A stretch of DNA of 64,000 bases from positions 99,230-163,229 of the forward strand of contig CALLUS010000004.1 in NCBI GenBank assembly GCA_938010435.1, read 5' to 3'. Origin of the DNA: an uncultured Rhizobiaceae group bacterium (GTDB lineage: Bacteria > Pseudomonadota > Alphaproteobacteria > Rhizobiales > Rhizobiaceae). The notes under the pieces are model-generated. The model searched no databases, was not told the DNA's origin, and was given only the letters and a program-made list of their open reading frames with translations. This document shows, piece by piece, positions 1,326 through 64,000 of this stretch (position 1 is its first letter; every line of letters begins with the position of its first letter). The position numbers were made by a program, and so were the translations under genes.

Positions 1326-1637
1326 ATGGCCGAAAAAATTACAGTCAACGTTCCCCACAAACTCACACGTGAGGTTGCCCGGAGTCGCATCGAGAACGGT
1401 TTTGCCAAAGTTCAAGAGCAAATCGCCGGAAAATCGGTGGACGTTCAACAGACTTGGGAAGGCGATATTTTGCATTTCAGCGCTAGAGCTATGGGCCAAA
1501 AAATTACGGGCAAATTATCGGTGACAGACAATAATGTGCTCATTGAAGTTGATCTGCCTTGGATATTGGCCAAATTGTCTGGTGGAATTCAAGACAAACT
1601 GAAAAAAGGCACTCAATTATTGCTCGACAAAAAATGA
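1326..1637 (+). CDS. Polyhydroxyalkanoic acid system family protein
   Basis: This 103-residue protein has the pattern of the small PHA granule-region family: [16 protein letters not shown] near the N-terminus, a central strand-rich part ([21 protein letters not shown]), and an end that predicts a short helix with a lysine-rich tail. Members of this family are often found near polyhydroxyalkanoate genes, but their function is not settled and no PHA synthase is in this window. It is transcribed divergently from the hydroxylase operon across about 185 bases (1142-1325). The call rests on motif recognition. Confidence 0.75.
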
Positions 1638-1709
1638 GTCCAGATTAAATCCGACCCTTGGGCCAGCGAAATCTAAGATTGCAAGAAATGACTATGAACG
1701 ACTACATGC

Positions 1710-1726
1710 TTGAGAAAAGTTCTCAA
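1710..1726. promoter_or_regulatory. Perfect inverted repeat before dgcN (candidate operator)
   Basis: The site reads TTGAGAA-AAG-TTCTCAA: two 7-base arms forming a perfect inverted repeat around a 3-base centre. It ends 16 bases before the dgcN start and just upstream of its ribosome site (ggag). Its symmetry and position suit a repressor or activator half-site pair, or a small mRNA hairpin near the ribosome site. No regulator gene lies next to it. The symmetry is read from the sequence; the role is inference. Confidence 0.4.
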
Positions 1727-1742
1727 CTGATGGAGTTGGTCA

Positions 1743-2744
1743 ATGATCGAGACCCCTTATCTCTTGTTTCTCGGCGATGCCGCCGATCCTCTCGCCGCTA
1801 AAGTTGCACAAGGCATTAAAGACTGGCGCCCTGAATTGTGCGTAGGCCAGTTGCGCCTGGACGGATGCCAAGCCGATATGGGTTTGGATGATCTCACCAT
1901 TGAAGAAGCTGTTGCCAAAGGCGCAAAAACCATGGTGATTGGCGTGGCCAATCGTGGTGGTTACATTTCTGATATATGGAAAAAAGCTCTCAAAAAAGCC
2001 CTTGAAGGCGGACTTGATCTTGCCTCCGGTTTGCACAATTTGTTGAACGATGAACAAGACCTTGTGGACTTAGCTTCTGCCAAAGGGCGTGCGTTGCACG
2101 ATGTTCGCATTCCAAGCGTAGAATATCCGATTGCAACTGGTGTGCGCCGCAAAGGCAAACGTTGCCTGGCTGTGGGAACGGACTGCTCTGTCGGCAAAAT
2201 GTACACAGCGCTTTGCATGGAAAAAACCATGCGTGCGCGCGGCATGAAAGCAACATTCCGCGCCACGGGCCAAACCGGCATTTTGGTCACAGGCGATGGT
2301 GTTCCATTGGATGCGGTAATCGCTGACTTTATGGCTGGTGCTGTTGAATACCTCACACCAGACAATGACGACGACCATTGGGATTTGATCGAAGGTCAAG
2401 GTAGTCTTTATCACGCATCATATTCCGGCGTGACAATGGCATTGGTTCACGGCGGCCAACCGGATGCTTTGATTTTGAGCCATGAGCCAACACGTGCCCA
2501 CATGCGCGGTTTGCCTGACTATCAACAACCAAGCTTGGAAGAATTGCGCGATACAGCTCTTATTCTGGCGCGGGTTGTAAACCCGGATGTCAAAGTTGTC
2601 GGCATTGCGATTAACACGCAACACCTTTCCGATGCCGAAGCCACGGCTTTATGTAAAGAGACAGAAGAACGGATGGGATTGCCAACCGTTGATCCATATC
2701 GCCATGGAGCTGACCGTTTGGTTGACGCTTTGGAAACTATCTAA
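1743..2744 (+). CDS. dgcN: DgcN-type D-glutamate N-acetyltransferase (DUF1611 family)
   Basis: The 333-residue product matches the DUF1611 family, some members of which (DgcN) acetylate D-glutamate with acetyl-CoA as the first step of a D-Glu catabolic route described in marine bacteria. Visible features are an N-terminal Rossmann-like half (PYLLFLGDAADPLAAKVAQG, TMVIGVANRGG), a glycine-rich loop GTDCSVGK at residues 145-152, and C-terminal signatures LSHEPTRAHMRG and IAINTQHL. The assignment is strengthened by dgcA starting inside the stop codon (TAATG). A ribosome site ggag precedes the ATG. D-Glu specificity is inferred from the pairing and not proved by any residue. Confidence 0.88.
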   Translation: MIETPYLLFLGDAADPLAAKVAQGIKDWRPELCVGQLRLDGCQADMGLDDLTIEEAVAKGAKTMVIGVANRGGYISDIWKKALKKALEGGLDLASGLHNLLNDEQDLVDLASAKGRALHDVRIPSVEYPIATGVRRKGKRCLAVGTDCSVGKMYTALCMEKTMRARGMKATFRATGQTGILVTGDGVPLDAVIADFMAGAVEYLTPDNDDDHWDLIEGQGSLYHASYSGVTMALVHGGQPDALILSHEPTRAHMRGLPDYQQPSLEELRDTALILARVVNPDVKVVGIAINTQHLSDAEATALCKETEERMGLPTVDPYRHGADRLVDALETI

Positions 2745-3730
2745 TGTCTTCCATCTCTCTTACCGTTGAAGAAACTGTTTTTCCACTTGCAGAAGTGTTT
2801 ACGATCTCTCGCGGCTCACGCACCGAAGCGCGCGTGGTAACTGTGAAATTGAACGATGGTTCACTCAACGGTTGGGGAGAATGTGTTCCCTATGCCCGCT
2901 ACAACGAAACTGTTGACAGTGTGATGGATGAAATTCGTTCACTGGAAAATGCTTTTGAAAATGGTCTTGATCGTCACGAGCTTCAGGACATGCTGGAACC
3001 GGGCGCTGCACGCAATGCACTTGATTGCGCTTTGTGGGATTTGGAAGCGAAACGATCAGGAAAACGCGCTTTTGAACTTGCTGGGCTTTCCAACCTTCAG
3101 CCAGAAATCACAGCTTATACTCTGTCACTTGCCGATCCTGACACTATGCGTGCGAAGGCTGCCGAACACGCTTTTCGCCCACTGCTCAAAATCAAGCTTG
3201 GTGGTGAAGGTGATATGGCACGGCTTGAAGCCGTTCGCGCAGGTGCGCCCAAAACTGACATTATTATTGATGCCAACGAAGGGTGGGATACCTATATCTA
3301 TAAAGAGCTTGCGCCGGTTCTCGTGAAACTAGGTGTAAAAATGGTTGAACAACCAATGCCCGCTGGCAAAGACGATGCACTTGGCGATGTGGAACGAATT
3401 CTACCTGTTTGCGCAGATGAATCATGTCATGACCGCACATCTTTAGCGGGCCTTCATGGCAAATACGATATGGTCAATATCAAGCTCGACAAGACCGGTG
3501 GATTGACCGAAGCACTTGCATTGCGCCGAGAAGCCGAGAAAGCCGGCTTCGATATCATGGTGGGTTGCATGGTCGGCTCATCCCTTGCTATGGCCCCGGC
3601 AACATTGGTGGCACAAGGTGTTGCCTATACTGATTTAGATGGACCGCTACTTCTTGCAGAAGACCGCAATCCACCTCTAAAATTTGACGAACGCGGTGTG
3701 TATCCACCCACAGCTGATCTCTGGGGTTAA
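2744..3730 (+). CDS. dgcA: DgcA-type N-acetyl-D-glutamate racemase (enolase superfamily, dipeptide-epimerase-like)
   Basis: This is a 328-residue enolase-superfamily enzyme of the muconate-lactonising/dipeptide epimerase branch. The N-terminal capping domain is followed by a barrel with the expected residues: KIK (Lys149, Lys151), metal ligands Asp176 (DANEGW), Glu202 (VEQP) and Asp225 (ADES), and a second lysine segment NIKLDK at 245-250. With DgcN upstream, the predicted reaction is racemisation of N-acetyl-D-Glu to N-acetyl-L-Glu; L-Ala-D/L-Glu epimerase is the main alternative and both use the same machinery. Its start overlaps the dgcN stop by one base, and the transaminase gene follows after three bases. 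Confidence 0.88.
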   Translation: MSSISLTVEETVFPLAEVFTISRGSRTEARVVTVKLNDGSLNGWGECVPYARYNETVDSVMDEIRSLENAFENGLDRHELQDMLEPGAARNALDCALWDLEAKRSGKRAFELAGLSNLQPEITAYTLSLADPDTMRAKAAEHAFRPLLKIKLGGEGDMARLEAVRAGAPKTDIIIDANEGWDTYIYKELAPVLVKLGVKMVEQPMPAGKDDALGDVERILPVCADESCHDRTSLAGLHGKYDMVNIKLDKTGGLTEALALRREAEKAGFDIMVGCMVGSSLAMAPATLVAQGVAYTDLDGPLLLAEDRNPPLKFDERGVYPPTADLWG

Positions 3731-3733
3731 ACA

Positions 3734-4588
3734 ATGAGAACTGTATATTTGAACGGCGACTATGTGCCGGAAAACGAAGCCAATGTATCTATTTTCGACC
3801 GGGGTTTTTTGTTTGCCGATGGCGTTTATGAAGTGACAACAGTGGTCGATGGTAAACTGATTGGCTTTGACGGTCATATTGAACGCCTGCAACGTTCACT
3901 CAACGAATTGAAAATCAATTACAAGGTGAATCGCGAAGAACTGTTGACCGTTCATCGTGAATTGGTTGCACGCAACAATATTGATCAGGGCATGATCTAC
4001 TTGCAAATGACACGCGGCAATCCGGGGGATCGTGATTTTGCGTTCCCACCTGAAGACACGCCTTTAACAGTTGTTCTGTTCACGCAGGAAAAACAAATTA
4101 TCGGCACATCCATCGAAACTAAAGGTTTGAAAGTGGTTTCGGTAGACGATTTGCGTTGGGGGCGTCGCGACATAAAAACAGTACAACTTTTGTTCCCATC
4201 GCTTGCAAAAATGGAAGCCAAAGAAAAAGGTGCCGATGATGCATGGCTCATGCAAGACGGGTATGTCACCGAAGGAACATCCAACAACGCGTATATTGTG
4301 AAAGACGGTAAAATCATCACACGTGATCTTTCCAACGATATTCTGCACGGCATCACACGCAAATCTGTTTTGGCCTGCGCCAAACTGCTGCAAATGGAAG
4401 TGGAAGAGCGCCCGTTCACAATTGAAGAAGCATACGCAGCGGACGAAGCTTTCGCTACATCAGCTTCCGGTTTCACAAATCCGATCGTTGAGATTGATGG
4501 AAACAAGGTCGGCACCGGCAAACCGGGACCAGTGGGCGATCGCCTAAGAGCACTTTATATCGCAGAGAATATGAAAGCGGCGATTTGA
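3734..4588 (+). CDS. dat: D-amino-acid transaminase (class IV aminotransferase)
   Basis: The 284-residue fold-IV PLP enzyme has the D-alanine transaminase signatures: YLNGDYVPENEANVSIFDRGFLFADGVYE is the family N-terminus (residues 5-33), the PLP lysine is Lys148 in RRDIKTVQLL, and the phosphate-binding region has EGTSNNAY at 180-187. It interconverts D-Ala or other D-amino acids with 2-oxo acids, including D-Glu with 2-oxoglutarate. Lying three bases after dgcA and overlapping the next gene, it is part of a D-amino acid operon: it can feed or drain the D-Glu pool that DgcN acts on. A branched-chain aminotransferase is less likely given the context. Confidence 0.9.
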   Translation: MRTVYLNGDYVPENEANVSIFDRGFLFADGVYEVTTVVDGKLIGFDGHIERLQRSLNELKINYKVNREELLTVHRELVARNNIDQGMIYLQMTRGNPGDRDFAFPPEDTPLTVVLFTQEKQIIGTSIETKGLKVVSVDDLRWGRRDIKTVQLLFPSLAKMEAKEKGADDAWLMQDGYVTEGTSNNAYIVKDGKIITRDLSNDILHGITRKSVLACAKLLQMEVEERPFTIEEAYAADEAFATSASGFTNPIVEIDGNKVGTGKPGPVGDRLRALYIAENMKAAI

Positions 4589-5067
4589 GCAAAGCTTCAG
4601 TCTATTTCATATCAAAGGTTAGCAATGGCTTTCTTTTTATCGGGCCGCGCCCTCAGGCACAGTCTTTGAAAGAATGGACGAATCAACTCCAAGAATACAA
4701 AATCAATCACGTGGTTTCACTGATTGAAGAAGCTGAAGTTACTCGACATGGATTGCAAAACGAAGGGGATGAGTTGAATTCCCTTGGGATTGGGTTCACC
4801 CGCTTTTCAGTCGATGATTTCCAAACGCCTAACGCAGCTACACTCCCATCATTGATCAATGATCTCTCCGCACGATTGTCCAATGGTGAACACTTGTTTC
4901 TTCATTGTGCCGGTGGCGTTGGCCGCGCTGGCACGATTACCTCGTGCCTGATGGTAAAACATGGGATGACCCCAAACGACGCAATGGAATTGGTTAGCCA
5001 ACAACGTGGGGAGAAATCCCCTGAAACTGATGAGCAAGCAAATTTTGTAAGAGCTTTTCAGCCCTAG
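4585..5067 (+). CDS. Protein-tyrosine/dual-specificity phosphatase family protein
   Basis: The 160-residue product has the CX5R phosphatase P-loop HCAGGVGRAGT, with nucleophile Cys108 and Arg114, and a likely general acid in SVDDFQTP (Asp77 or Asp78). The rest fits a compact dual-specificity fold with IGPRPQ near the start. It begins with TTG overlapping the dat stop (TTGA, 4 bases), so its translation is probably coupled to the D-amino acid transaminase. The substrate is unknown: a phosphoprotein, a phospholipid or a small phosphate ester are all possible. Membership of the dgc-dat operon is the only functional hint. Confidence 0.85.
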   Translation: MSKASVYFISKVSNGFLFIGPRPQAQSLKEWTNQLQEYKINHVVSLIEEAEVTRHGLQNEGDELNSLGIGFTRFSVDDFQTPNAATLPSLINDLSARLSNGEHLFLHCAGGVGRAGTITSCLMVKHGMTPNDAMELVSQQRGEKSPETDEQANFVRAFQP

Positions 5068-5126
5068 CCAGTATGATGCGGCTCACGTAAAAGCTCTATC
5101 ACAGCGCCGAAAACCGCAAAGCACTC

Positions 5127-7913
5127 ATGTCCAAACACGCCCTCCTATTAAATCAATTGATTGACGCTGAGGAATTGCGGAGAGAACTCACCGCATTCAC
5201 CACCAATACGGATGGCGATGGCAGCAACAGTAATGTTCGGTTGAACGTTCTCACGCACCTTAAAAAGGTGTCCGCGCAAGGGCGGAAACGCGCAGAAGAA
5301 TTATTAATCGAAGATGGCAGTGGTGCAGATTGTGCCGCCCGCCTGTCACACCTTCAAGATGAGATCATCCGTTGTATTTATGACTTCGCCATTACTCACG
5401 TTCTGCGCGCGCCTAATCTTTCAGAAGGGGAACGTATGGCGGTGGTTGCCGTGGGCGGTTATGGGCGCGGCACGTTAGCACCGGGGTCGGACATAGATTT
5501 ACTCTTTCTTCTGCCTTACAAACTGACAGCTCTTGGTGAAAGCCTCATTGAGTATATTCTCTACATGCTGTGGGATATGGGGTTTAAAGTCGGCCACGCC
5601 ACGCGAACACCGGATGAGTGCATTCGTTTATCCCGCGATGATATGACAATCCGGACAGCCATTTTAGAAGCGCGCTTTCTTTGGGGTAATTCTGCTCTTT
5701 TCGACGACATGCTTATCCGTTTCAACAAAGAAATTGTTACATCCACCGCTCGGGAATTCATTGAAGCTAAATTAAATGAGCGCGATGACCGCCATCGTAA
5801 GTCTGGTGAGTCCCGCTACCTTGTTGAGCCCAACGTAAAAGATGGTAAGGGAGGGCAAAGAGATATTCACACCCTGTTTTGGATATCGAAATATTTCTAT
5901 CAAGTCCGTACGTGGAAAGAGCTTCGCGCGGCCAAAGTATTTTCAAAAGCGGAATTTCAAAAATTTTCAAAAGCCCATGATTTTCTATGGGCCGTGAGAT
6001 GCCATCTGCATTTTGCAACTGGCCGTGCCACGGAGCGTTTGTCGTTTGACCATCAACCAATGTTGGCTGAACGTTTGGGATATCTTCCGCATCCGGGTCA
6101 AAGCGCCGTTGAACGATTTATGAAACATTACTTTTTGGTGGCCAAAGATGTAGGCGACCTAACACGTATTCTGTGTTCCGCCCTGGAAGAAGAGCAGGCA
6201 AAGAGCGTTCAAGGCGTCACAGGCATTTTACGTTCGCTCACCCGCCGCCCGAAAAAAATAAAAGGCACAGATCAGTTTGTCGCATTGAACAACCGGATCA
6301 AGCCTATTGATGACGAAGTTTTCCAGCGTGACCCCGTCAACATTATCAAAATGTTTCACTTGGCGGAACAGCACGAGTTCTTGTTTCATCCCGACGCAAT
6401 GCAATTGGTCTCACGATCTCTGAAACTGGTGAATAAGAAACTGCGAGCAGAACCCCAAGCCAATGAAGATTTTCTCGCCTGTCTCACCTCGCGAAAAACA
6501 CCCGAACGCACTCTGCGAAAAATGAACGAAAGCGGTGTGCTTGGACGTTTTATTCCTGATTTCGGCAAGATCGTCGCGATGATGCAGTTCAATATGTATC
6601 ACCACTACACAGTCGACGAACATTTACTGCGCTCGATAGGTATTCTGTCAGAGATCGAACATGGTGAAGTGGGAAAACAGCATCCCCTTGCCAACGAATT
6701 GATGGTGAGTTCACCAAATCGCGTTGCTCTTTATGTCGCTCTATTGTTACATGATGTGGCGAAAGGCAGACCGGAAGATCATTCCATTGCGGGAGCTAAA
6801 ATTGCGCGTAAAATTTGTCCGCGCCTTGGGTTGTCAAAAGCGCAGACCGAGCTTGTAGCATGGTTGATTGAACAACATTTACTGATGTCGAACATTGCCC
6901 AATCACGAGATTTGAATGATCCGCGTACTATTTCTGATTTTGCTTCCGTTATGCAAAGCATGGATCGGATGAAAGCTCTTTTGGTGCTAACCGTTTGCGA
7001 CATCAAGGCTGTTGGGCCGGAAGTCTGGAACGGTTGGAAAGGCCAATTGTTGCGCACGCTCTATTATGAAACCGAGCCACGTTTGACGGGTGGCTTCACA
7101 TCTATTCCCCGCAAAGAACGCATCGACGAAGTGCTTGGAGAATTGGAAGAGGCGCTGTCTGATTGGACCACGAAAGATAGCAAGCGATACCTCAATCTCA
7201 TGTATGACAATTATCTATTGACCGTTCCACGGGAAGATCAAATCCGGCACCTCCAATTCATCCATGAGAGTGACAAGACGGAAGACAGCATTGCCACAAC
7301 TTCAGTCACGCGGGAATTTGAAGCGGTGACCGAAATCACATTGTTGGCTCCTGATCATCCGCGTCTGCTTTCCACAATTACGGGGTGCTGTACGGCAGCC
7401 GAGGCTAACATTGTCGATGCACAAATCTTCACCACCAAAGATGGGCGCGCACTTGATAGTATTTTCATCAACCGCGCCTTTGACAATGATGAGGATGAGC
7501 GTCGACGCGCAGAACGTATTGGCAAAACTATTGAGGATGTTTTGTCAGGCAAAACTCGCTTGAAAGATCTCTTGGCCAATCAACCCAAACCCAGCGGGCG
7601 CAAGAAAGCATTCAAAGTTGAGCCTTCTGTCGTCGTCAATAACGGCGCTTCTGATAAATTTACAGTGCTCGAAATTGAAGGGCTTGACCGTCCTGGAGTG
7701 TTGTCAAAAATCACGGACGCTATGGCCGATTTATCCCTCGATATTGCATCAGCTCATATCGCAACATTTGGCGAAAAATTCATCGATACGTTTTATGTAA
7801 CTGACTTGGTCGGTCACAAAATAGTGTCTGCACAAAAACTAACTGCGATAAAACGAAAATTGCTGACAGCTATCATTCCATCTGCAGACAAAAAAGAAAA
7901 GTTGGTTTCATGA
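5127..7913 (+). CDS. glnD: Bifunctional [protein-PII] uridylyltransferase/uridylyl-removing enzyme GlnD
   Basis: At 928 residues this has the full GlnD architecture: a nucleotidyltransferase domain with GGYGRGTLAPGSDIDLL (residues 110-126, catalytic Asp122 and Asp124), a GlnD PII-UTase linker, an HD domain with LLHDVAKGRPEDHS (His542-Asp543) for deuridylylation, and two C-terminal ACT domains starting near residues 730 and 843. It uridylylates PII proteins when glutamine is low and reverses this when glutamine is high. It overlaps murJ by 4 bases (ATGA). In many Hyphomicrobiales glnD sits beside mutS (from memory); here mutS is about 25 kb away. Confidence 0.98.
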   Translation: MSKHALLLNQLIDAEELRRELTAFTTNTDGDGSNSNVRLNVLTHLKKVSAQGRKRAEELLIEDGSGADCAARLSHLQDEIIRCIYDFAITHVLRAPNLSEGERMAVVAVGGYGRGTLAPGSDIDLLFLLPYKLTALGESLIEYILYMLWDMGFKVGHATRTPDECIRLSRDDMTIRTAILEARFLWGNSALFDDMLIRFNKEIVTSTAREFIEAKLNERDDRHRKSGESRYLVEPNVKDGKGGQRDIHTLFWISKYFYQVRTWKELRAAKVFSKAEFQKFSKAHDFLWAVRCHLHFATGRATERLSFDHQPMLAERLGYLPHPGQSAVERFMKHYFLVAKDVGDLTRILCSALEEEQAKSVQGVTGILRSLTRRPKKIKGTDQFVALNNRIKPIDDEVFQRDPVNIIKMFHLAEQHEFLFHPDAMQLVSRSLKLVNKKLRAEPQANEDFLACLTSRKTPERTLRKMNESGVLGRFIPDFGKIVAMMQFNMYHHYTVDEHLLRSIGILSEIEHGEVGKQHPLANELMVSSPNRVALYVALLLHDVAKGRPEDHSIAGAKIARKICPRLGLSKAQTELVAWLIEQHLLMSNIAQSRDLNDPRTISDFASVMQSMDRMKALLVLTVCDIKAVGPEVWNGWKGQLLRTLYYETEPRLTGGFTSIPRKERIDEVLGELEEALSDWTTKDSKRYLNLMYDNYLLTVPREDQIRHLQFIHESDKTEDSIATTSVTREFEAVTEITLLAPDHPRLLSTITGCCTAAEANIVDAQIFTTKDGRALDSIFINRAFDNDEDERRRAERIGKTIEDVLSGKTRLKDLLANQPKPSGRKKAFKVEPSVVVNNGASDKFTVLEIEGLDRPGVLSKITDAMADLSLDIASAHIATFGEKFIDTFYVTDLVGHKIVSAQKLTAIKRKLLTAIIPSADKKEKLVS

Positions 7914-9466
7914 GCGGTTTGATTTCGAAATTTGCCACTGTTGGTGGTGCAACTATGGCCAGCCGTGTGTTTGGTTTTGCGCGTGAAGCCTTTATGGCAG
8001 CAGCACTGGGCACCGGCCCGGTGGCCGATGTTTTTTACACTTGTTTCAGATTTCCAAATCTCTTTCGACGGCTGTTTGCAGAAGGCGCATTTAATATTGC
8101 ATTCATTCCGCTTTTTGCCAAAGAGTTGGAAGGAGGCGGTAATGATGCGGCCCGCAAGTTCGGACAAGATGTGTTTGCGGTTCTCGCCTCTTGGCTGTTG
8201 CTGTTTACGGGCATTGCCATGCTGTCCATGCCGTTCTTGGTCGCCACCATTGTTGCACCCGGATTTACCGACAACTCTGAGAAATTCGATCTTGCCGTTC
8301 TCATGACGCGGATCATGTTTCCCTATCTGCTTTGCATGTCATTGGTGGCGATGTTCTCAGGCATTTTGAATTCCATGCGTCGTTATTTCTTGGCGGCCAT
8401 TGTTCCGGTTCTGCTCAACGTGATTCTTGTCAATATTCTCATTTATTCAATTTGGTGGGAAATGCCCGAGCGGGAAACAGGCATATTGTTGGCTTGGGGT
8501 GTCTTCTTCTCAGGCATCGCGCAATTCCTGTTTTTGCTCTGGGGCGTTCACCGCGAAGGGATGGGGTTCAAACTCACTTTCCCAAAACTAACTGCTCCGG
8601 TAAAACGCCTTATGGTCTTGATGGGACCAGGGCTGCTAACAGGTGGTGTTTTGCAGATTAATCTTCTGATCGGAACAATTATTGCCACCGCTCAAGATGG
8701 CGCCAATGCACTGCTCAATTACGCCGATCGTCTCAACCAATTACCCCTTGGTGTGATCGGCATTGCCGTCGGCGTTGTGCTTTTACCGGAATTATCGCGT
8801 GCTCTGAAATCTGGCAATCACGAGGAAGCCGAAAACTTACAAAACAGATCTTTGGAATTTGCTCTCGCGCTCACACTGCCTGCGGCAGTGGGTTTCATCA
8901 TGATTCCGGAAGACATTGTTCGGTTACTTTATGAGCGTGGTGAGTTTGATGCCATTGCCACATCGAAGACGGCACTGGCTTTGGCCGCCTTCGCAACAGG
9001 TCTACCGGCCTATGTGATGATGAAAGTATTCCAGCCTGCATTCTTTGCCCGTGAAGATATGCGGACACCGTTTTGGTTTTCCTGCATCATGGTTGTTACA
9101 AATATCGTTCTTTCTTTGGCGCTTTTCCCAACACTTGGTCATGTGGGAATCGCGATTGCAACGTCGGTTTCCGCATGGGTGAATTTGATTTTGCTGGTTG
9201 TAACCCAATGGCGACGTGGTGATTTCAAACCTGACAATTTAACCCTGCGACGTTTATTCATGCTTGGAATTTCCGCCCTCATCATGGGCGCTGTGGTCTG
9301 GTTTGCGAGAATGGTATTTGAGGATATTTTGATTGATGCAGGATTCTTCACGCAACTGATTGTAGTCGGTGGTTTGATCACTTTTGGCGCGTCGATGTAT
9401 TTCGCAATGTGCTTTATCTCAGGAGCTGTGGACCGCGCTCAAGTGAAACTACTCTTGCGCCGTTAA
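7910..9466 (+). CDS. murJ: Lipid II flippase MurJ (MviN)
   Basis: The product has 518 residues and alternating hydrophobic segments consistent with the 14-helix MOP-family fold. Family signatures are TMASRVFGFAREAFMAAALG near the N-terminus, ADVFYTCFRFPNLFRRLFAEGAF, and LNYADRLNQLPLGVIGIAVG in the middle. MurJ moves lipid-linked peptidoglycan precursor across the inner membrane. The start overlaps the glnD stop by 4 bases, so the two are translationally coupled, an arrangement found in many alphaproteobacteria. Confidence 0.97.
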   Translation: MSGLISKFATVGGATMASRVFGFAREAFMAAALGTGPVADVFYTCFRFPNLFRRLFAEGAFNIAFIPLFAKELEGGGNDAARKFGQDVFAVLASWLLLFTGIAMLSMPFLVATIVAPGFTDNSEKFDLAVLMTRIMFPYLLCMSLVAMFSGILNSMRRYFLAAIVPVLLNVILVNILIYSIWWEMPERETGILLAWGVFFSGIAQFLFLLWGVHREGMGFKLTFPKLTAPVKRLMVLMGPGLLTGGVLQINLLIGTIIATAQDGANALLNYADRLNQLPLGVIGIAVGVVLLPELSRALKSGNHEEAENLQNRSLEFALALTLPAAVGFIMIPEDIVRLLYERGEFDAIATSKTALALAAFATGLPAYVMMKVFQPAFFAREDMRTPFWFSCIMVVTNIVLSLALFPTLGHVGIAIATSVSAWVNLILLVVTQWRRGDFKPDNLTLRRLFMLGISALIMGAVVWFARMVFEDILIDAGFFTQLIVVGGLITFGASMYFAMCFISGAVDRAQVKLLLRR

Positions 9467-62200: not shown

Positions 62201-62344
62201 GGTGACTGATGCCAATGCGAGAGGATCATTTTGAGGTGCAAACCCTTCAATGAGTTTGCCCGTTAAAAGTGCTTCCACCAATGTAGGCAAATAAGGAGCA
62301 CCCGGTGGGATTGAAGATACGTTGGGGTCGCGACCCAACATCAT
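59201..62344 (-). CDS. addB: Double-strand break repair nuclease subunit AddB
   Basis: The 1047-residue protein has the alphaproteobacterial AddB opening SSIPPGAPYLPTLVEALLTG, an inactive helicase-like body, and a C-terminal nuclease with IALLDYKTGANPK. No N-terminal Walker A is present, as is usual for AddB. The cysteines that coordinate an Fe-S cluster in Bacillus AddB are not seen in the nuclease domain. It overlaps murU-like and addA genes by 4 bases each. Confidence 0.95.
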   Translation of the reverse strand: MMLGRDPNVSSIPPGAPYLPTLVEALLTGKLIEGFAPQNDPLALASVTIWVPTRRAARALATEFVARLDGVPALLPNIKALGDVDDDMLSLDDVGPANRLEVGLSPLERQLILSRLVLAWSQSLKPAQRDLLGGGDIIIPSSLADAVRFSTDLARLMDTVATEEVSWELLHTLVPDDHEKWWQLTLEFLKIATTLWPALLEERGLVDSSSQRVSGLRLQADVYEKSGSKGPVIAAGSTGSIPATAHLLRVISRMENGVVVLPGLDRDLDPETWSKIDLPDNDRDNDGTAPGHPQYGLRKLLRSLDVDRENVAQIGDIEELSAGYARVREQLISEAMRPSFSTGHWQQVFETYSEEKRDLAFAGIALVETQGEHEEALSIALALRETLTDPSKTAALVTPDRNLARRVAVEMRRFGLDVDDSAGLPLRNRPVGTLARLVLKVAFEAPDPVALVALIKHPLLRFGEEPQKTRDAARALELAVLRNAIVPVKCGELAGQIRRTRLESEEENGRVHRAVRRISKSDWEACEWLGEQLDACFAGLQNTFAETEFHELATVSARLIETCGFDHEGSLKSLYEGEDGKSLYGLLSELMEQREDIAALSHEWPEIFDALLSQKVVRPVGGAHPRVSILGPLEARLQTYDRVVLGGLNEKSWPGVARNDPFLSRPMKLALGLPPPERRTGLAAHDFQVLLGIKDVVLTRSIKADNAPTVASRWVQRLTTLAGEKSKNAMKSRGQVYLDWVKEIDQPDQSPKACAQPRPTPPVTVRPKSLPITDIETWIKDPYAIYAKRILKLSALGPLIREADAREKGTLFHEIFEDFVESKGSLDFEPAYERLIEIAKSKFSSSILPSEIQAMWWPRFETIAEAFVKWHQMTMKYIDQTFIELDGKTADGLNGFTLRGRADRIDLLKDGRIALLDYKTGANPKVSSVKTHDAPQLSLEAAMAVRGAFGAQLEKEVAELTYVRLRPDEELKVDRIGHDDRLKKDDDAATLAEQAWARLAALVDEYQQQDMAYLSKARFISENDWASDYDHLARVSEWSTVEEGADE

Positions 62345-63072
62345 GCCGCTTGCCTGAACGCATGGATGGCCTGTTCTGCTTCATCAATCGCTGCAGGTGT
62401 GCCGACGTGCAACCACAACCCATCCAGCACATGACCGAACAATCGACCTGCGGAAATGGCATCGTCAAACAATCGGTTCAACGAAAATACATCATCAGGA
62501 ATCGCTTTAAACAACTCTGGCTTCGTGATAATCGCTCCCGCATAAACATAAGGGGCTGACTCCGCATCACCTCGGCGCTGCAATTGACCATCGGGGGCCA
62601 TGAAGAAATCACCTCTACCATCAAACCCGACAGATTTTTCTTTTGGGGCTACCAACAACTGCATGTCCATTTGATCAACGTCCCATGTCGATTGCATAGA
62701 TATGAGATTTGATGAATCCGTATCAATCCAGAATGAATCTGCGTTCAAAATATAAAATGGTGCATCGCTTAATGGCACTATGGCGCGTTTCACACCTCCG
62801 CCCGAATCCAACAAGATATCGCGTTCATCAGAAATCAAAACCTGCGGTTTGCTTCGCGCCTTAGTGTGCTGTTCAATTTGATCTGCCAGATAGTGAACAT
62901 TCACAGCTGTTTTTTGAACATCCGCACCGGCCAGTGAATCCAAAGCATGATCAAGAAGTGTCTTACCTGAAACTTTCACAAGAGGTTTCGGAAGAGTGTT
63001 TGTAATGGGACGCATACGTGTTCCCAACCCAGCGGCCAATACCATGGCTTGATCGATTTTACTGTTCGTCAC
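62341..63072 (-). CDS. Nucleotidyltransferase family protein (MurU-like)
   Basis: The 243-residue sugar nucleotidyltransferase has MVLAAGLGTRMRPITNTLPK, KPLVKVSGKTLLDHALDSL and ILNADSFW. It begins with GTG after gaggg. MurU joins UTP to MurNAc-1-phosphate in the peptidoglycan recycling pathway; the adjacent AmgK-like kinase would supply that substrate. Other sugar-1-phosphates are possible. It is between the kinase gene (25 bases upstream) and addB. Confidence 0.88.
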   Translation of the reverse strand: MTNSKIDQAMVLAAGLGTRMRPITNTLPKPLVKVSGKTLLDHALDSLAGADVQKTAVNVHYLADQIEQHTKARSKPQVLISDERDILLDSGGGVKRAIVPLSDAPFYILNADSFWIDTDSSNLISMQSTWDVDQMDMQLLVAPKEKSVGFDGRGDFFMAPDGQLQRRGDAESAPYVYAGAIITKPELFKAIPDDVFSLNRLFDDAISAGRLFGHVLDGLWLHVGTPAAIDEAEQAIHAFRQAA

Positions 63073-63097
63073 ATCTTTGCCCTCAATCTAAGCAACA

Positions 63098-64000
63098 TCA
63101 CGCTTGGTGCAAAACTGTTTCCACCCATTCACGATAGCGCTTCAAGGTCGGGTGAGCCAGAGAGCGTGCGAGATAGTCTTCCATACGTGGCAAATGTGCC
63201 AGATATGCATCTTTACCATCACGTTTCGATAAACGCACAAAAATACCCAACACTTTCGTAACCCGCTGTGCCGCCATTATGGCGTAAGCTGAACGGAATT
63301 TTTTTTCATCAAAAGGGATGCGCAACTTACAATAGTGGTCCAGTAGTTCTGTTTCCAATTGCACCGGGATATCCACACGCGCATCCTGCGCAATAGACGC
63401 CACATCGTACGACGAGGGTCCAATCAAACCGTCTTGAAAATCGATCAAGCCCGTTTGATTTGCAGCTTCTACATTTTCAATCCAAATGATGTTGGGGGAA
63501 TGATAGTCGCGCAGAACGATAGACTGTTCGCTCAACAGAACATTATCAACCAGCTCTGACCAAATATTTTGGAATTCTGAGTATTCTTGATCACTGGGCA
63601 CGCGCCCTGTTTTCCATTCAAAATACCAATCAATGAGCAGTTCAACTTCAATCAGCATTGCTTGCTTATCGAAGGGCGGTACGTGATGAATTTTCCCATT
63701 AGGAAGTTTAACTTCGTTACGCCAAACCTTGCTGTGCAATGTTGCAAGAGTTTCCATCGATACCAAATAGCGGGCCGCAATCGGCTGTCTGTTTTTATCG
63801 ATTATCTCGCCTGACCCCAAATCTTCGATCAGCAAAATGCCCTGATCTAAATCTAAATCATATATTTGGGGCACTCGAAACCCCTCTTCTTCGAGTAAAT
63901 ATGCCATACCTGCAAACGCACTCATGTCTTCGGCAAGATTTGCAATTTTGCTATATGGTTTGCCATCACGGATTGGGGGGCCATCCGGTTGAGTTGGCGC
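63098..64000 (-). CDS. AmgK-like sugar kinase/aminoglycoside phosphotransferase family protein (partial, N-terminus missing)
   Basis: The frame is open to the window edge and runs upstream past the first in-window ATG (63925) through PPIRDGKPYSKIANLAEDM, so the start is outside. The visible 300 residues carry the phosphotransferase motifs VLRDYHSPNIIWI and GLIDFQDGLIGPSSYD. AmgK phosphorylates MurNAc and GlcNAc at C1. In many Hyphomicrobiales this domain is fused to an N-terminal TsaE domain; whether that is so here cannot be seen. It heads the murU-addB-addA block. Confidence 0.9.
   Translation of the reverse strand, partial: APTQPDGPPIRDGKPYSKIANLAEDMSAFAGMAYLLEEEGFRVPQIYDLDLDQGILLIEDLGSGEIIDKNRQPIAARYLVSMETLATLHSKVWRNEVKLPNGKIHHVPPFDKQAMLIEVELLIDWYFEWKTGRVPSDQEYSEFQNIWSELVDNVLLSEQSIVLRDYHSPNIIWIENVEAANQTGLIDFQDGLIGPSSYDVASIAQDARVDIPVQLETELLDHYCKLRIPFDEKKFRSAYAIMAAQRVTKVLGIFVRLSKRDGKDAYLAHLPRMEDYLARSLAHPTLKRYREWVETVLHQA

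Follow-up and report, generated by a model that had tools for sequence, protein, structure and literature searches.

The window analysed here, a 64,000-nucleotide stretch of contig CALLUS010000004.1 from an uncultured Rhizobiaceae group bacterium, contains a head-to-tail series of four genes, dgcN, dgcA, dat and ptp, all on the + strand, in which a small CX5R phosphatase (ptp) is joined to genes of D-glutamate and D-amino acid use. We consider it probable that ptp encodes an accessory phosphatase peculiar to one lineage, which is translated along with the operon but is dispensable for it. A survey of 120 dgcN neighbourhoods from Alphaproteobacteria outside the window's own genus-level group found no phosphatase of this type, and five genomes within that group have dgcA and dat with no ptp homolog; for these reasons ptp does not appear to be part of the D-glutamate pathway. 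An earlier sequence-only reading had treated the phosphatase as built into the operon and had suggested that it might act on an enzyme of the D-glutamate/D-amino acid route or on a phosphorylated intermediate or cell-wall-derived compound. The coupling stood, being kept in seven genomes of the group, whereas a place in the route was not supported.

Layout of the operon

The features concerned are as follows.

1743-2744, + strand: dgcN, D-glutamate N-acetyltransferase, 333 residues (NF041892, 557.4 bits, cut-off 480; DUF1611 N- and C-terminal domains)
2744-3730, + strand: dgcA, N-acetyl-D-glutamate racemase, 328 residues (NF042940, 501.9 bits, cut-off 400; MR_MLE N- and C-terminal domains)
3734-4588, + strand: dat, class IV D-amino-acid transaminase, 284 residues (NF005209, 367.7 bits, cut-off 320; Aminotran_4)
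4585-5067, + strand: ptp, CX5R dual-specificity-type phosphatase, 160 residues (PTP-SAK/Tc-R-P/DSPc), with a TTG start within the dat stop
4903-4932, + strand: catalytic loop of ptp, HCAGGVGRAG, H107-G116 with C108 and R114 (from translation and alignment)
5127-7913, + strand: glnD, [protein-PII] uridylyltransferase (NF003467, 1381 bits, cut-off 959)

The tight linkage first read from the letters is present at every junction. Base 2744 is common to the dgcN stop and the dgcA ATG (1-base overlap), a 3-base gap (3731-3733) separates dgcA from dat, and the dat TGA (4586-4588) and the ptp TTG (from 4585) overlap by four bases in TTGA (4585-4588), so that ptp does start inside the transaminase stop. 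The next gene, glnD, begins after a spacing of 59 bases. DgcN and DgcA each exceed the NCBIfam equivalog cut-off in a profile search, in agreement with the names first given to them. The dat product scores 242 bits against the equivalog TIGR01121, below its cut-off of 277.45, and is for this reason filed under the subfamily NF005209. A scan of positions 1600-5300 yielded no promoter-like sites (4.1 in shuffled sequences) and four terminator-like sites (4.6 in shuffled sequences); on such counts we only infer that dgcN, dgcA, dat and ptp share a single transcript. According to PMC10845958, the NCBIfam names and general knowledge of the route, Dat uses other D-amino acids to form D-glutamate, DgcN adds the acetyl group, and the racemase DgcA turns N-acetyl-D-glutamate into N-acetyl-L-glutamate.

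Distribution and history of the phosphatase gene

Relatives were sampled as 41 genomes, the window's own and 40 others. The ptp gene is present in seven of these, all within one genus-level group (7 of its 15 genomes), and in all seven, the window's included, the gene order is dgcA-dat-ptp with ptp directly after dat. By predicted starts, the first likely start codon being taken in each genome, the dat-ptp junction is a 4-base overlap (TTGA or GTGA) in four genomes, a 2-base gap in two and a 13-base gap in one. The coupling of dat and ptp is thus more than chance and is kept across the genus-level group. Because glnD follows ptp in only five of the seven (in G005 and G010, ptp stands behind dat without glnD next to it), the gene is tied to dat.

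Eight genomes of the group lack the gene: a phosphatase profile (A1) that recovers the window's ptp at 2.5e-76 gave no match at E<=0.01 in any of the eight. Five of them (G002, G004, G007, G011 and G012) have dgcA adjoining dat with no ptp homolog at E 0.01, the dgcA of G011 being truncated by the contig end; in G007, glnD comes directly after dat, with no gene between. As for the remaining three, G006 and G009 (77% and 87% complete) are without dgcA and dat at E 1e-30, and G014 (0.9 Mb) has dat only.

In wider samples, a search for dgcN at E 1e-60 found matches in 158 of the 347 genomes of an order sample and in 84 of the 337 genomes of a class sample, and the dgc route is accordingly widespread in Alphaproteobacteria. 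The 120 neighbourhoods surveyed, the window's not counted, comprise 80 of 83 class matches (all but G437, G456 and G556, where the contig stops shortly past the gene) together with 40 of 157 order matches, hand-picked for spread. By the profile, a phosphatase of the window's type occurs in none of the 120; at least 2 kb of sequence lies past the last dgc gene in 106 of these loci, and in the other 14 a distal gene could escape. The counts rest on the profile, a regular expression for the loop run alongside having missed a known positive (L013). The dgcA gene lies by dgcN in 111 of the 120 loci; eight loci, seven of them with dgcA as well, have dat close by in the same orientation as dgcN. As a neighbour of dgc genes, the phosphatase is confined to the group in the genomes sampled, and the idea of a conserved partner was rejected on this survey. 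Restriction to a very close clade had been named beforehand as counting against a role in the route, and this is largely the distribution found, ptp being limited to one genus-level group.

In searches from the side of the phosphatase, the profile matched 36 of the 347 order genomes and 16 of 297 genomes of a family sample; loci were retrieved for 30 of 39 order matches and for all 18 family matches. With flanks of about 1.5 kb in view, a dgc or dat gene adjoined the phosphatase in group members alone, if weak enolase-superfamily matches in L038 and L049 are set apart. Scanning the genome contigs with the single ptp sequence gave no match; among the best 80 of the 131 loci found with the alignment, six belonged to the group and the others held more distant phosphatases. 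Within this set of 80, enlarged by 16 more loci, only the group loci had dgc or dat matches (E 1e-10) beside the phosphatase.

Several other protein tyrosine phosphatase (PTP) neighbourhoods were recorded. Two loci with a PTP beside an enolase-superfamily gene, L038 (G060) and L049 (G137), were set aside, the neighbour being only a 25-27% match to dgcA. In L038 the PTP (1447-1968) overlaps by four bases the start of the neighbouring gene (1965-3050), which belongs to dgcA's superfamily; L049 has a similar neighbouring match. The PTP of L161 (G573) is a different one (profile E 0.12), lying about 1.4 kb past dgcA with a gene between and no dat match, and was likewise set aside; it spans 8358-8945 in reverse-complement coordinates and overlaps the start of the next gene, which we take to be MeaB-like. 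Another tight coupling is seen in G068 (L033, 331-1992), where a related PTP starts on the base that directly follows the stop codon of a metabolic gene, presumably thiolase-like. In each of two genomes of the same family, a pair of PTP homologs lies close together (G839:C16:44487-45939 and G900:C2:802566-804012).

In an unrooted tree of 49 tips (47 distinct sequences), a branch with support 93 separates the group phosphatases from all other homologs, which fits a single gain. The five ptp-less genomes with dgcA and dat form one clade nested among the ptp-bearing genomes in a tree of dgcN-dgcA-dat (22 tips), at a support of only 48. The simplest reading of the two trees would be that ptp was gained once, ahead of the diversification of the group, and was lost once afterwards. 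In the six other ptp-bearing genomes, ptp is 37-58% identical to the window's protein, and dat 75-89%. Ratios of nonsynonymous to synonymous substitution rates (dN/dS) are quoted only where finite, most dS values being saturated; among G000, G008 and G013, the three closest genomes, where dS is finite, they are 0.13 and 0.18 for ptp compared with 0.03-0.06 for dgcN, dgcA and dat. These ratios indicate purifying selection on ptp, together with a rate of change some three to five times that of the other three genes.

The course of events that we favour would be as follows. The ancestor of the Rhizobiaceae/Ahrensia-like group would have acquired, a single time and directly behind dat, a small soluble phosphatase that is cysteine-dependent and has the dual-specificity phosphatase (DSP)/PTP fold. 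This phosphatase would since then have been translated with the dgcN-dgcA-dat message through the tight coupling. It would have evolved fast and later have been lost in some members of the group, the route from Dat through DgcN to DgcA presumably working without it.

The phosphatase protein and its possible substrates

Among Pfam families, the window's ptp matches PTP-SAK best (PF22784, 64.5 bits, cut-off 27), as well as DSPc (PF00782, 42.7 bits, cut-off 33.5), and PF22784 is matched by all seven group phosphatases. In an alignment of these seven, the window's included, H107, C108, G111, G113, R114 and D78 are invariant, D78 being the candidate general acid. The AlphaFold2 model (predicted local distance difference test score, pLDDT, 90.2; predicted template modelling score, pTM, 0.88) was matched to KAP (1fpz_C; Z 21.4, 160 residues, 2.2 Å; TM-score 0.84 by query length), SsoPTP (3ro1; Z 20.8, 145 residues, 1.7 Å), TkPTP (5z5a_B; Z 20.3, 144 residues, 2.2 Å) and PRL-1 (1xm2_F; Z 19.7, 143 residues, 1.8 Å), rows less than 1 Z apart being counted as tied. 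From the model we are confident in assigning ptp the PTP/DSP fold, and with Cys, Arg and Asp all retained the protein is most likely active as a phosphatase. It is the sole match in the window's genome at E 0.001. PADLOC gave no match. Of two matches in PHROGs, one is phrog_17568 (4.9e-13, named thymidylate synthase) and the other phrog_5614 (0.0057, function unknown). The residue after the loop Arg is Ala in six of the seven group phosphatases, as it is in PRL. Among loop matches in 96 fetched loci, Ala again predominates at this position (69 of 90), 80 of the loci having been fetched with a pattern asking for Ala or Ser.

Protein kinases and AnmK were searched for in 12 group genomes, the seven with ptp and the five that have dgcA and dat without it. 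The kinase searches used PF00069 (Hanks-type) and TIGR01007 (BY-kinase). Neither profile found a match in the window's genome at E 1e-8, in searches that did not extend to HipA, HPr kinase or histidine kinases. A switch of kinase and phosphatase acting on DgcN, DgcA or Dat is less probable on this result, and a small phosphorylated compound, or a phosphoprotein of another kinase class, is somewhat more likely to be the substrate. Our proposed course of events would likewise have ptp act on a phosphometabolite, or on the product of a non-Hanks, non-BY kinase, and not on the three pathway enzymes.

The first idea of the earlier reading was that ptp controls an enzyme of the route by dephosphorylation. 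With ptp as a dedicated regulator of this kind, switching D-glutamate catabolism through the phosphorylation state of DgcN, DgcA or Dat, its tight coupling to dat in all seven genomes would be in keeping, and the protein phosphatases KAP and PRL are among the top structure matches. Kinases that might serve such a switch do occur in some ptp-bearing genomes, PF00069 being matched in G010 and TIGR01007 above its cut-off in G001 and G013. However, PF00069 has no match in the other 11 of the 12 genomes, the window's included (absence in G008, 61% complete, is weak), and TIGR01007, above cut-off in 4 of 12, is found in two of the seven ptp-bearing and two of the five ptp-less genomes. The same five ptp-less genomes keep dgcA and dat, and we regard this kind of regulation as very unlikely. 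Alternatively, ptp might feed the route or keep it clean as a small-molecule phosphatase, acting on a cell-wall phosphosugar such as N-acetylmuramic acid 6-phosphate (MurNAc-6-P) or on a phosphorylated Dat cofactor; a small substrate gains in plausibility from the lack of matches to the usual protein kinases in the window's genome. AnmK, the source of MurNAc-6-P, has a match in all 12 genomes, so that a cell-wall sugar phosphate is probably available; but since the match is equally present in the five ptp-less genomes, AnmK does not track ptp. In addition, the known MurNAc-6-P phosphatase, MupP (not searched for here), is a HAD enzyme, and a role of this sort for ptp seems unlikely, though it deserves some weight. 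MurU-like and AmgK-like genes (NF045697, 272 bits, cut-off 370; NF045698, 168.5 bits, cut-off 500) near the window's other end (62341-63925, - strand) are also consistent with such a role; they are probably a MurNAc recycling pair, with the AnmK match elsewhere in the genome.

The presence of glnD after ptp in five of the seven genomes, and the direct succession of dat and glnD in G007, would also suit a neutral passenger in the dat-glnD interval with its function elsewhere, for example in PII/nitrogen signalling with glnD. On the other side, the two genomes in which ptp stands behind dat without glnD make glnD an unlikely partner, and all seven genes retain an intact frame and their active-site residues; we consider a mere passenger decidedly unlikely. 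An accessory phosphatase remains our preferred explanation, and several points weigh against it. The 4-base overlap with dat in four of the seven genomes, and retention behind dat without glnD in two, make the gene stickier than a pure passenger would need to be. There may have been more than one loss of ptp, and ptp may have a role in only part of the group. The dN/dS values are rough because dS is near saturation, and in wider pairs dgcA reaches 0.12 and murJ 0.13-0.24, so that the neighbours are not always slow. It is quite unlikely, in our estimate, that ptp, as a phosphatase of small molecules or phosphoproteins, was drawn in specifically to serve D-amino acid transamination, with D-amino acid use in the group tuned by a dephosphorylation that the dgc pathway is not known to include.

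Comparison with known systems

A part for ptp in the dgc route would add a new point of control over D-amino acid use; the evidence points instead to a group-specific add-on, which general models of the dgc pathway need not include. The seven ptp-bearing and five ptp-less genomes form a clean comparison set. A literature search, with most subscription journals outside its reach, found no report of a phosphatase with dgcN-dgcA, which is weak evidence.

The window resembles the dgcN-dgcA pathway known elsewhere in that its DgcN and DgcA pass the equivalog cut-offs and their genes are adjacent, as dgcA and dgcN are in most of the outside loci. In contrast, the window adds dat and ptp, of which the first is rare in those loci (8 of 120) and the second absent (0 of 120). 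With KAP, SsoPTP, TkPTP and PRL-1, the window's ptp has in common a single PTP domain, an HCX5R loop and a general-acid Asp, but it differs from these small dual-specificity phosphatases in sequence, with only 14-28% identity in the listed structure matches. Within PTP-SAK (PF22784), it is a stand-alone protein of 160 residues in a metabolic operon. Both the genes of the pathway and the family of the phosphatase are already known, and the dgc-dat-ptp arrangement is a group-specific variant.

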